Source: Oscillospiraceae bacterium NTUH-002-81
GTDB taxonomy: Bacteria > Bacillota > Clostridia > Lachnospirales > Lachnospiraceae
Assembly: GCA_032620915.1 (NCBI GenBank)
Contig: CP136052.1
Span: 155,001 to 219,000, forward strand
Direction of reading: 5' to 3'
DNA length: 64,000 nt
Numbering within the stretch: position 1 is the first letter of the stretch; each line of letters opens with the position of its first letter. Both the position numbers and the translations under genes were made by a program. This document shows positions 21,167 to 25,148 of the stretch, one piece after another. The notes below the pieces were generated by a model. The model worked only from the letters and a program-made list of their open reading frames with translations. It searched no databases and was not told the origin of the DNA.

Positions 21167-21337
21167 TTACTCCTGCTCAATAGCTCCGGTCGGGCAAGAA
21201 CCTGCACATGCACCACAGTCGATGCAAGCGCTGGAATCGATCTCGAATTTGCCTTCGCCCTGAGAAATTGCTCCAACAGGACATTCTCCCTCACATGCTC
21301 CACAACATACACAAGTGTCATTGATAACGTATGCCAT
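21167..21337 (-). CDS. 2[4Fe-4S] ferredoxin
   Basis: 56 residues, the clostridial ferredoxin size. Two cluster motifs: CVCCGACEGECP (about 8-19) and CIDCGACAGSCP (about 37-48). It is a small electron carrier for reductases and hydrogenases. Start at ATG 21337 after GGAGGAGACT; the frame extends upstream to 21481 but without a ribosome site. Downstream of pflA on the same strand; it could reduce the radical-SAM cluster of PflA, but this is only an association. Confidence 0.93.
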   Translation of the reverse strand: MAYVINDTCVCCGACEGECPVGAISQGEGKFEIDSSACIDCGACAGSCPTGAIEQE

Positions 21338-21477
21338 AATAGTCTCCTCCTTAAAAATAAATAAATTAGATGCTAATATTATAGCGTAGAAGTCTGTCCC
21401 TCCTGCGCTATGCTTTATTCTAATACAAAAACCCGGATTATACAAGGGGAAAATTTTCAAAAAATGTGATTTTTTTA

Positions 21478-22245
21478 TCAATTACAAAATGAGCTGCGAA
21501 GCTCCGCGCGTCGCTGTTTTACTCCCCTGATGATTTCGGCCCGCAGCTCGGGAGCCCGGGCTTTGTCCATGGGCGGGATACCCTGCAGCGGATAATCAAT
21601 GCCCAGCTGCTCGTATTTGGCAATGCCCATGGTGTGATAGGGCAGCACATCCAGTGCCCGCAGGGTTCGAAGACCGCCGATGAAATATCCCAGACGGTAC
21701 AGGGACTCTGCGTCGTCGGTGATGCCGGGAACGACCACATGGCGGATCCAGATGGGAATTTTCTGATCGGACAGGTACCGGGCAAAAGCCAGAATACCGT
21801 CGTTGGGCTGTCCGGTGAGGATGCGGTGTTTCTCGGGATCGATGTGCTTGATGTCCAGCATGACCAGATCGGTGGACTGCATCAGGCGGTCAAAGGCTTC
21901 CATCCGGGTCGGGTTATCCGGCTGAAAGGTGATGCCGGAGGTGTCCAGGCAGGTGTGGATGTCCTTTGCTTTGGCTTTTTCGAAAAGCTCGGTGACAAAT
22001 TCGATCTGCAGCAGCGGTTCGCCGCCGGTGACGGTAAGGCCGCCGTTCTGATAGTAGACCCGGTTGCGCTCGTAAGCGGCCAGAATCTCGTCCGTGTCCA
22101 TCATCTGGCCGATGGCCGGTGTCCATGTATCGGGATTGTGGCAGTACTGGCAGCGCATGGGACATCCCTGCACAAATACCACATAGCGGATGCCGGGGCC
22201 GTCTACCGTGCCGAAGCTTTCCTGTGAATGTACATAACCTTTCAT
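21478..22245 (-). CDS. pflA: Pyruvate formate-lyase activating enzyme
   Basis: 255 residues, usual length. Radical-SAM enzyme that takes an H atom from the glycine of PFL. N-terminal signature CPMRCQYCHNP (CxxxCxxC, about 29-39) binds the 4Fe-4S cluster; GGEPLLQ near 79 binds SAM; IRHVVVPGITD near 180. Start ATG 22245 with GGGAGACT upstream. It lies downstream of the radical subunit gene in the same orientation. The 213-bp spacer contains a hairpin (about 22270-22306). Confidence 0.96.
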   Translation of the reverse strand: MKGYVHSQESFGTVDGPGIRYVVFVQGCPMRCQYCHNPDTWTPAIGQMMDTDEILAAYERNRVYYQNGGLTVTGGEPLLQIEFVTELFEKAKAKDIHTCLDTSGITFQPDNPTRMEAFDRLMQSTDLVMLDIKHIDPEKHRILTGQPNDGILAFARYLSDQKIPIWIRHVVVPGITDDAESLYRLGYFIGGLRTLRALDVLPYHTMGIAKYEQLGIDYPLQGIPPMDKARAPELRAEIIRGVKQRRAELRSSFCN

Positions 22246-22458
22246 GATGGCAGTCTCCCTTCGAAAGAGAATGCCTGCCAATGCGCCGTTGGACGCAAAA
22301 GCAGGCTGTTCTAAGTTATAAATATTCTGCGAGGTGCAAGAGCGCCGGCAGCGCCCATCATGCACTAATGAGAAGCTGCACAGCGTCATAGAACCCCGTA
22401 TCGCAGCTGCATTCCGGCGCTGTCTGTCCGACAACAGTCGAAATGCATTATGAAAATT
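22246..22458. other. Spacer between radical subunit and pflA
   Basis: No gene seen. It contains an inverted repeat GCCTGC...GCAGGC with an inner TGCG/CGCA pair near 22271-22306 and is otherwise unremarkable. It may be a processing or attenuation site in the pfl transcript. Confidence 0.35.
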
Positions 22459-22701
22459 TTACAGAGATTCGTGCATGGTTCTTGCGATTACCTCATCCTG
22501 CTGTACCTTTGTCAGCTTGATGAAGTTTACGGCATATCCGGATACACGGATGGTAAGCTGCGGATATTTCTCCGGGTGTGCCTGTGCGTCCAGAAGGGTC
22601 TCTCTGTTTAATACGTTTACATTTAAGTGGTGGCCGCCTTTCTGTGCGTAGCCGTCCAATAAACCAACCAGGTTATCAACCTGTGCCTGTGTTGCTGCCA
22701 T
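22459..22701 (-). CDS. Stand-alone glycyl-radical subunit of split pyruvate formate-lyase
   Basis: 80 residues equivalent to the C-terminal radical domain of PflB. It contains [20 protein letters not shown] (about 13-32), the [17 protein letters not shown] segment, and the radical loop RVSGYAVNF (about 53-61) whose Gly is the radical site, ending in ARTMHESL. It starts with ATG after AAGGAGGACTTCACT, so it is an independent gene and not a truncated read. Because the catalytic chain encoded upstream lacks this domain, this small protein must supply the radical. E. coli YfiD (GrcA) is a longer spare part for an intact PFL; here the subunit appears obligatory. Confidence 0.9.
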
Positions 22702-22718
22702 AGTGAAGTCCTCCTTGT

Positions 22719-22946
22719 CTATTTTTCTTTGCGGATCGTCTCGTCAATCGCGTCATCAATGGTCGGAACCTTGCAGGCGATATTTCCCTTGGCGCAGTCC
22801 ATACAACCGGTGTCTACGGTGCGGGAAATGCTGCTGCCTGCACTCTGGTTGACTTCCACGCCCAGATGCCCTGCGCCTTTGGCGGCGGAGCCATCCAGGA
22901 AAGCGATGATGTCGTCCAGTAATTTATCGTTGTCGATATTTTCCAT
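22719..22946 (-). CDS. Small Cys-containing protein between the PFL pieces
   Basis: 75 residues, start ATG 22946 after GGGGAG with 8-bp spacing. The N-terminal half (about 8-34) resembles the beginning of the radical domain: [17 protein letters not shown] against [18 protein letters not shown], about 11 of 24 positions identical by eye. Instead of the Gly loop it continues into [17 protein letters not shown], a CxxC-x6-C arrangement (about 48-58), then an acidic helix. There is no signal peptide. I do not know this family. Possible roles are metal or thiol protection of the radical enzyme, docking of the radical subunit, or assembly; none is shown. Confidence 0.8.
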
Positions 22947-23022
22947 GATAAAATCTCCCCTGTCATTCGGTGATCTGTTTTCCATAGCCGGATCACCTGT
23001 TTATGAGTAGATTCCCTTTTTA

Positions 23023-25068
23023 TTATTTATCCAAACCCAAATCAATGTCAAGGTCTCCGGCGATGACTTTGTCATCCTTGCCCAGCGCCCCCGGAATGAT
23101 GGAGAAGGTGTTGGAAATTCCATCCTGGGAATCCAGGAACGGCAGTTTGGCAACAGAGGACAGGGATGCAACGGCACCGTGGCTGTCTCTGCCGTGCATC
23201 GGGTTGGCACCCGGTGCAAATGGAACGCCCTTCTGACGGCCGTCCGGTGTGCTTCCGGTATTTTTACCATATACCACGTTGGAAGTGATGGTAAGGATGG
23301 AAGTGGTGGGGAAACCGTCTCTGTATACGTGATGTTTGCGGATCATATTCATGAAAGTGGTGACAAGCTTCTTTGCCAGTGCGTCCACACGGTCATCGTC
23401 GTTGCCGTATTTCGGGAAATCGCCCTCGGTCTCAAAGCCGGTAACAATGCCGTCCTCATCCCGGATGACTTTGACCTTCGCATATTTGATGGCGGACAGG
23501 GAGTCAGCCACTACGGACAGGCCTGCGATACCGGTTGCAAAATATCTCTTTACATGCTTGTCATGCAGTGCCATCTCCAGACTCTCATAGCAATATTTGT
23601 CATGCATATAGTGGATAATGTTCAGGATGTTGACATACACGCCGGCCAGCCATTCCATCATATCCTCATACTTGTCCCAAACATCGTCGAAGTCCAGATA
23701 TTCGCCGGTTACCGGTCGGTATTTCGGGCCGATCTGCTTCTTGGTCATCTCATCCACACCACCGTTGATCGCATACAGCAGGCACTTTGCCAGGTTTGCA
23801 CGGGCACCGAAGAACTGCATTTCCTTGCCGACTCTCATGGAGGATACGCAGCATGCGATGGCATAATCGTCACCGTGGGTCACACGCATCAGGTCATCGT
23901 TCTCATACTGGATGGAAGAGGTGTTGATGGAAGTCTTCGCACAGAACTTCTTGAAGTTCATCGGAAGTCTGGTGGACCACAGCACGGTCAGGTTCGGCTC
24001 GGGAGCCGGGCCCAGGTTGGTCAGGGTGTGCAGGAAACGGAAGGACATCCTGGTTACCATGTGGCGTCCGTCAATGCCCACGCCGCCGATGGACTCGGTT
24101 ACCCAAACCGGGTCGCCGGAGAACAGGTCGTTGTACTCGGGGGTACGTGCGAATTTGATCAGACGCAGCTTCATGATGAAGTGGTCGATGAACTCCTGGA
24201 TCTGCTCTTCTGTGAAGGTGCCCTCTTTTAAATCTCTCTGTGCATAGCAGTCAAGGAAGGTGGAAGTACGTCCCAGGGACATAGCCGCACCGTTCTGCTG
24301 CTTGACAGCTGCCAGATAGCCGAAGTAAACGGCCTGGATGGCTTCCTGTACGTTGGAAGCGGGCTTGCGGATGTCACAGCCGTAAATATCGCCTAATTTA
24401 ATCAGCTCTTTCAGGGCCTTGATCTGCTCGGACAGCTCCTCTCGGTCACGGATCACATCGTCGGTCATGATGTGGGAGGTGGAGTCCTTCTGGGCGATCT
24501 TGTCCTCGATGAGGCGGTCAACGCCGTACAGTGCGACCCGGCGGTAATCGCCGATGATACGTCCGCGGCCGTAAGCGTCCGGAAGACCGGTAACGATGTG
24601 GGCGGAACGGCAGTCTCTCATCTCCTGGGTGTAAGCGTCAAATACACCGGCATTGTGTGTTTTTCTGTGGATGGTGAAAAACTCAACAACCTCCGGGTCC
24701 AGCTCATAGCCGTTGTCCTCGCACGCCTTCATGGCCATACGGATTCCGCCGTAAGGCATCATGGCACGCTTGAAAGGCTTGTCTGTCTGGAAACCAACGA
24801 TGGTCTCTTTATTTTTGTCCAGATACCCTGCTGCGTGAGAGGTGATGGTAGATACCACCTTGGTATCCATATCCAGCACGCCGCCTGCCTCCCGTTCCTG
24901 ACGGGAAAGATCCAGTACCTGGTCCCATAAATCTTTGGTGTTCTGTGTAGGGCCTGCAAGGAAAGCGTCGTCTCCGTCATAAGGCTCGTAATTCTTCTGA
25001 ATGAAGTCTCTGACATCAACCTCGGTTTCCCATGCGCCGCCTGTGAAATTTCTCCACTCTGGTCTCAT
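23023..25068 (-). CDS. pflB: Pyruvate formate-lyase catalytic chain lacking the glycyl-radical domain
   Basis: 681 residues; intact PflB is about 750-760. Converts pyruvate and CoA to acetyl-CoA and formate. The chain carries the PFL barrel ([20 protein letters not shown] at the start), the catalytic Cys-Cys pair in [11 protein letters not shown] (about 406-407), and [12 protein letters not shown] near the end. It stops at a TAA-TAA pair right after the [11 protein letters not shown] segment, where the E. coli enzyme continues into its radical domain. That domain is encoded separately at 22459-22701. The junction contains no homopolymer and no fragment of the domain, so this is a true gene split. 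GGAGGG precedes the ATG. Confidence 0.95.
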
Positions 25069-25118: not shown

Positions 25119-25148
25119 ATTATATGCAGAAATGCCTGTTAGCGTCAA
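25119..25148 (-). promoter_or_regulatory. Promoter of the pfl operon
   Basis: On the minus strand TTGACG (complement of 25143-25148), 18 bp, TATAAT (complement of 25119-25124). An inverted repeat TACTTT-N9-AAAGTA lies just upstream (about 25159-25180) and may be an operator. Confidence 0.75.

Follow-up and report, generated by a model that had tools for sequence, protein, structure and literature searches.

A divided pyruvate formate-lyase

The window (the whole 64,000-nucleotide stretch of DNA analyzed here) had been described in an earlier note as encoding a pyruvate formate-lyase (PFL) made of a catalytic chain and a separate 80-residue radical chain, which raises the questions of whether this division is genuine, whether the radical must always be supplied in trans, and what lies between the two genes. 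Profile scores confirmed the two chains, and six features were assigned to the locus:

25119..25148, minus strand: promoter-like site ahead of the core gene, TTGACG-18 nt-TATAAT, 11 of 12 consensus matches
23023..25068, minus strand: PFL catalytic core, 681 amino acids; TIGR01255 positions 2-666 of 744, 1085 bits; Pfam PFL-like domain and first half of Gly_radical
22719..22946, minus strand: middle gene, 75 amino acids; likeness to the first half of the radical domain, then a cysteine tail (C48, C51, C58)
22459..22701, minus strand: GrcA3, stand-alone glycyl radical protein, 80 amino acids; NF038360, 160.2 bits, cutoff 158; Pfam Gly_radical 50-106 of 106
21478..22245, minus strand: PflA, the PFL-activating radical SAM enzyme; TIGR02493, 282 bits, cutoff 231.75; ORF 21478..22434
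21167..21337, minus strand: two-cluster 4Fe-4S ferredoxin; NF058577, 83.5 bits, cutoff 65; ORF 21167..21481, start at an internal ATG

The order on the minus strand is thus core, middle gene, GrcA3, pflA, and ferredoxin. The catalytic domain of the core scores above the TIGR01255 cutoff of 994.2 bits and contains the adjacent catalytic cysteine pair (IACCVSS; Cys406-Cys407, codons 23848-23853, counted by hand), which aligns with that of its relatives. The core ORF terminates in a double TAA and carries no glycyl radical loop, and its C-terminal tail is free of cysteine. The loop (RVSGYAVNF, with Gly55, counted by hand, at codon 22537-22539) is encoded by the separate GrcA3 gene, which covers TIGR01255 positions 664-744 and, as a stand-alone ORF scoring above the cutoff, belongs to NF038360. 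The distance between core and GrcA3 is 321 bp, within one base of the 322 bp given earlier. This gap had been taken to be noncoding; it is occupied by the 75-amino-acid middle gene, which has relatives in many genomes.

The split is genuine and does not result from an assembly or sequencing error, because GrcA3 was found in its own frame at all loci checked (111 of 111 in one set and 55 of 55 in another; the genomes of the two sets are partly common, both sets were retrieved via GrcA3 or its model, and the first two thirds of them are the best-scoring matches) and because the cores of other listed split genomes terminate near model position 663-677, as the window core does. The recurrence of split frames across the loci of relatives bears out the view that the junction is no frameshift artifact, and the pairing of core and GrcA3 is conserved in relatives.

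The radical had also been claimed to be supplied always in trans, a claim that a full-length pflB elsewhere in the genome would have undermined. A TIGR01255 profile search of the organism's genome (a single 3.62-Mb contig, 98.97% complete) found none, and the core stops before the radical domain, which supports a radical supplied by another chain. The matches obtained were the core, GrcA3, and, weakly, two glycyl radical enzymes of 854 and 784 amino acids; the former is a (2S)-3-sulfopropanediol dehydratase (NF048009), and the latter is PFL2-3-like only and below every cutoff shown. A further Gly_radical match belongs to the anaerobic ribonucleotide reductase NrdD. The nrdD locus (C1:496567-499887) consists of two overlapping frames of 229 and 384 amino acids, perhaps owing to a frameshift in the assembly.

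The start of PflA was placed at an internal ATG (MKGYVHSQESFGTVDGPG), and the TIGR02493 match begins at residue 67 of the longer frame. The ferredoxin encoded directly after pflA is a possible electron donor of PflA. Promoter-like sites are no more common in this region than in shuffled sequences, and it is the position of the site at 25119..25148 that speaks for it.

Distribution of the split and relation to known systems

The split PFL is widespread and not unique to the genome of the window. In a family sample of 150 genomes, one per genus, a stand-alone GrcA3 was present in 60 genomes and a full-length PflB in 59, with both in 3 (G085, G119, and G132), as counted from the top rows among the matches listed. 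At the class level, the stand-alone frame occurred in at least 16 of 293 genomes from 8 family codes, among the matches listed. Named holders of GrcA3 include Ruminococcus bicirculans, R. albus, Acetatifactor, and Collinsella, as well as metagenome-assembled genomes (MAGs) labeled Lachnospiraceae, Oscillospiraceae, Erysipelotrichaceae, and Gastranaerophilales (a biased set, the best 80 of 579 confirmed stretches).

At least in part, the split is already known, and as such it should not be called new, because NCBIfam already names GrcA3 and because the two best solved matches to the window core, PDB entries 38lb and 38la (Formate acetyltransferase), lack a radical domain; such cores have therefore been worked on by at least one group. 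In 38lb the chain goes beyond the core to a tail that bears cysteines, and the last residues of 38la are GKED. Neither entry was matched in a search with GrcA3, nor does either contain a relative of the middle gene. No description of a split PFL was found in the literature searched, and searches for a family, structure, or paper covering the middle gene or its exchange for a tail on the core (see below) likewise found none.

The window core is homologous to Escherichia coli PflB (TIGR01255; PDB 2pfl and 1h16) over positions 2-666 of 744 and shares with it the cysteine pair and the adjacent PflA, but its radical domain resides in another chain and the system includes a cysteine module. GrcA3 resembles E. 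coli GrcA/YfiD (PDB 6owr; TIGR04365) in being a stand-alone radical domain with RVSGYAV and probably, by homology, in its type of activase. Unlike GrcA, it has 80 rather than 127 amino acids and lacks the disordered N-terminal recognition half (TIGR04365 is matched at 65-126 of 126 only). Moreover, whereas E. coli GrcA repairs a complete PFL, no full-length PflB that could be rescued was found in the window's genome, where the core depends on GrcA3 as its sole source of a radical domain. Two papers assign GrcA a repair function in facultative anaerobes (PMC12288474, PMC12338860).

A middle gene that alternates with a cysteine tail

The middle protein matched no Pfam, NCBIfam, or PHROGs family. 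Its N-terminal 35 residues resemble the start of GrcA3 (profile match with 94.9% probability, E value of 4e-8; 93.6% and 2e-7 in a repeat with a larger profile), so that its homology to the glycyl radical domain is confined to the first 35 columns; the RVSGY loop is absent from all 26 middle proteins aligned. The invariant columns of this alignment are D18, H27, C51, A57, C58, and P61 (window numbering). The middle gene is under purifying selection, since its median dN/dS is 0.08 (10 computable of 12 chosen pairs), and it was detected at an E value of <1e-8 in 40 of the 150 family genomes. In L070, L071, L072, and L130 it begins before the core gene has ended, an overlap that suggests translational coupling.

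A second small family, unlinked to the PFL genes and with a conserved YHHGRCDVGSPWA block, was noted at L213-L218 (genomes G100, G112, G116, G060, G080, and G002). It is weakly similar to the first part of the middle protein; two members searched matched no Pfam or NCBIfam family, and a search of the window's genome for the YHHGRCDVGSPWA pattern found none.

Among 128 split loci that include a core, a middle gene is present at 83 and a cysteine-bearing core tail at 41; no locus has both, and 4 have neither. Besides the window, 72 of them come from the set of 80 named loci, 8 of which were set aside because no core was in reach, and 55 come from the family sample; 127 are distinct by their last 300 residues. 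A middle gene was counted when it lay between core and GrcA3 or beside them. Some of the loci had been used to build the first middle-gene profile, so that matches there arise by construction; the alternation with the tail does not. Cysteine makes up 7.0% of the core tails and 7.8% of the 35 C-terminal residues of middle proteins, compared with 1.4% of the core bodies and 0% of the core tails at loci that have a middle gene.

All 60 family genomes with a stand-alone GrcA3 possess the module, 39 as a middle gene and 21 as a core tail, and among the 56 genomes that have only a full-length PflB, no strong middle-gene match was obtained. The sole strong match outside split genomes was in G006, a 67% complete MAG in which no PFL or GrcA3 was detected. 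Among the four loci with neither form, those of G002 and G130 belong to genomes that encode the middle protein at an unlinked position; in G130 the order is core, pflA, GrcA3 (L194), not core, GrcA3, pflA, and its middle gene lies on another contig (L211). At the remaining two, L134 and L135, both from MAGs, no module was found in the core, beside it, or elsewhere in the genome. The module is hence not indispensable, because none was found in these two and chain 38la ends without a tail.

The two forms appear to carry the same motif, because C-x(1,2)-P-[TNS] is common to 81 of the 83 middle proteins and 30 of the 41 core tails (11 tails are without it); the longer pattern C-x(3,8)-A-C-x(1,2)-P fits 80 of the 83 middle proteins.

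A probable single split and two re-fusions

Two phylogenies were calculated, a quick tree of 148 cores, which gave a warning of long branches among the full-length rows, and a careful tree of 59 cores chosen from those 148. In both, the split cores and 5 full-length PFLs fall on one side of a branch (support of 99/98 in the 59-core tree) and the other full-length PFLs fall on the opposite side; the resulting clade holds 118 split cores and 5 re-fused ones. Three changes of the split label were needed throughout the 5-95% range of bootstrap trees. Because the five full-length rows are nested inside the split clade, the plain reading of the trees would be one origin of the split followed by two re-fusions. 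Middle gene and core tail were exchanged at least 8 times on the tree.

Of the re-fused enzymes, L055 retains cysteines in the linker that joins the core to the radical domain (DVTCGCEEVTC), and its last residues are CCM; it is the only one of 30 full-length PFLs with a linker cysteine and lies inside the split clade. L046, L048, L051, and L057 have short linkers without cysteine.

Proposed mechanism and alternatives

These data very probably reflect an obligate two-chain PFL that receives its radical from GrcA3 in trans and that nearly always includes a cysteine module, as gene or tail and never as both. Given a core that ends before the radical domain and a genome in which no complete PflB was found, PflA would by homology place the radical on Gly55 of GrcA3, and GrcA3 would provide the core with the missing strand and the Gly loop, from which the radical would pass to Cys406/407, much as GrcA does for damaged E. 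coli PFL. When GrcA3 is off, the barrel would stand open, and the middle protein (which retains a radical domain's N-terminal helix and strand, with no radical) may dock as a placeholder, while the cysteines of the middle protein or the core tail, present in one form or the other in nearly every split PFL, may protect or re-reduce the catalytic pair until fresh GrcA3 displaces the placeholder. We regard this docking and thiol step, taken by itself, as tentative. Fusion models reached mean pLDDT values of 68 and 60, with the middle protein and the tail mostly under 50, and do not decide the docking.

The middle protein or cysteine tail would thus work at the open radical site. In a different account, the middle protein acts in assembly or recognition: it would replace the first half of the radical domain and bring in GrcA3 and PflA, the cysteines being of minor importance. 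PMC8683613 reports that truncation of E. coli PFL at residue 695 makes its binding to YfiD too weak for detection, with 32-fold less radical acquired, and that good binding requires PFL residues 696-733 together with YfiD's own N-terminal half. Residues 696-733 are the stretch holding the first half of the radical domain, and it is to just this type of stretch that the middle protein is homologous. By analogy with these data, the natural pair would resemble the worst E. coli pair, and another contact should be needed, because the natural split core is without an equivalent of 696-733 and GrcA3 is without a YfiD-like N-terminal half. Recruitment is nonetheless rather unlikely: the 41 of 128 loci that lack the middle gene keep the cysteine tail and not the part resembling the radical domain, and two cysteines are among the columns that do not vary in the middle family. 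The cysteines, and not the helix-strand part, are common to all forms, which speaks more for thiol chemistry at the active site than for recruitment alone.

Alternatively, the module might bind metal (an Fe-S cluster or zinc) and serve as a structural or oxygen-sensing subunit. Small cluster-bearing subunits occur in 4-hydroxyphenylacetate decarboxylase and benzylsuccinate synthase, and the module could be likened to them: it has two or three conserved cysteines, most often spaced C-x2-C-x6-C (48 of 83 middle proteins), two copies could share a site in what is presumably a homodimeric core, and a ferredoxin gene comes after pflA in the window. The spacing varies widely, however, 22 of the 83 middle proteins and 27 of the 41 core tails have two cysteines only, and family searches matched no cluster-binding model. 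The variable spacing would fit redox chemistry better than a metal site and proves neither, and we consider metal binding rather improbable.

That the split is a decayed pflB and GrcA3 a mere repair protein as in E. coli, a notion suggested by the placement of GrcA3 in the same named group of autonomous cofactors, is scarcely credible, given that the 118 split and 5 re-fused cores form one clade under purifying selection (median dN/dS of 0.03 for cores, 12 pairs, and 0.02 for GrcA3, 11 pairs) and that 57 of the 60 genomes with stand-alone GrcA3 have no full-length PflB, among the matches listed, and thus nothing to repair.

A further version of a thiol function at the open radical site would make the middle protein a radical-less mimic that sits at the empty site and swings a dithiol tail to the catalytic cysteines, with the core tail as the same device in cis; as a whole, this version is doubtful. 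Class I ribonucleotide reductase has a C-terminal dithiol tail, which would be functionally comparable. If the mimic reading were true, PFL would alternate between an active state with GrcA3 and a state guarded by the mimic, in a dedicated cycle of standby and repair. In gut anaerobes, PFL supplies formate and acetyl-CoA metabolism, and it is destroyed by oxygen, which cleaves the chain at the radical glycine. The part at risk from oxygen is, in a split enzyme, a cheap separate protein. The retention of the module through at least 8 swaps between gene and tail, and in part in one re-fused enzyme, points to a further required step, which would stay hidden in work on E. coli PFL.

Additional GrcA3 genes

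A second, orphan GrcA3 with no PFL core within about 3 kb was observed at five loci (L205-L209, in genomes G031, G041, G080, G144, and G112, respectively), and all five genomes also have the split operon. Such orphans could be free spare radical carriers, and their occurrence in split-operon genomes is compatible with, and does not prove, an exchange of the radical carrier after oxygen damage. At L207 the orphan adjoins a frame with a WCGPC motif (thioredoxin-like by eye) and a regulator-like frame. In a Gastranaerophilales MAG, GrcA3 itself (L138:5007-5258) has its own cysteine tail, NSCGC.
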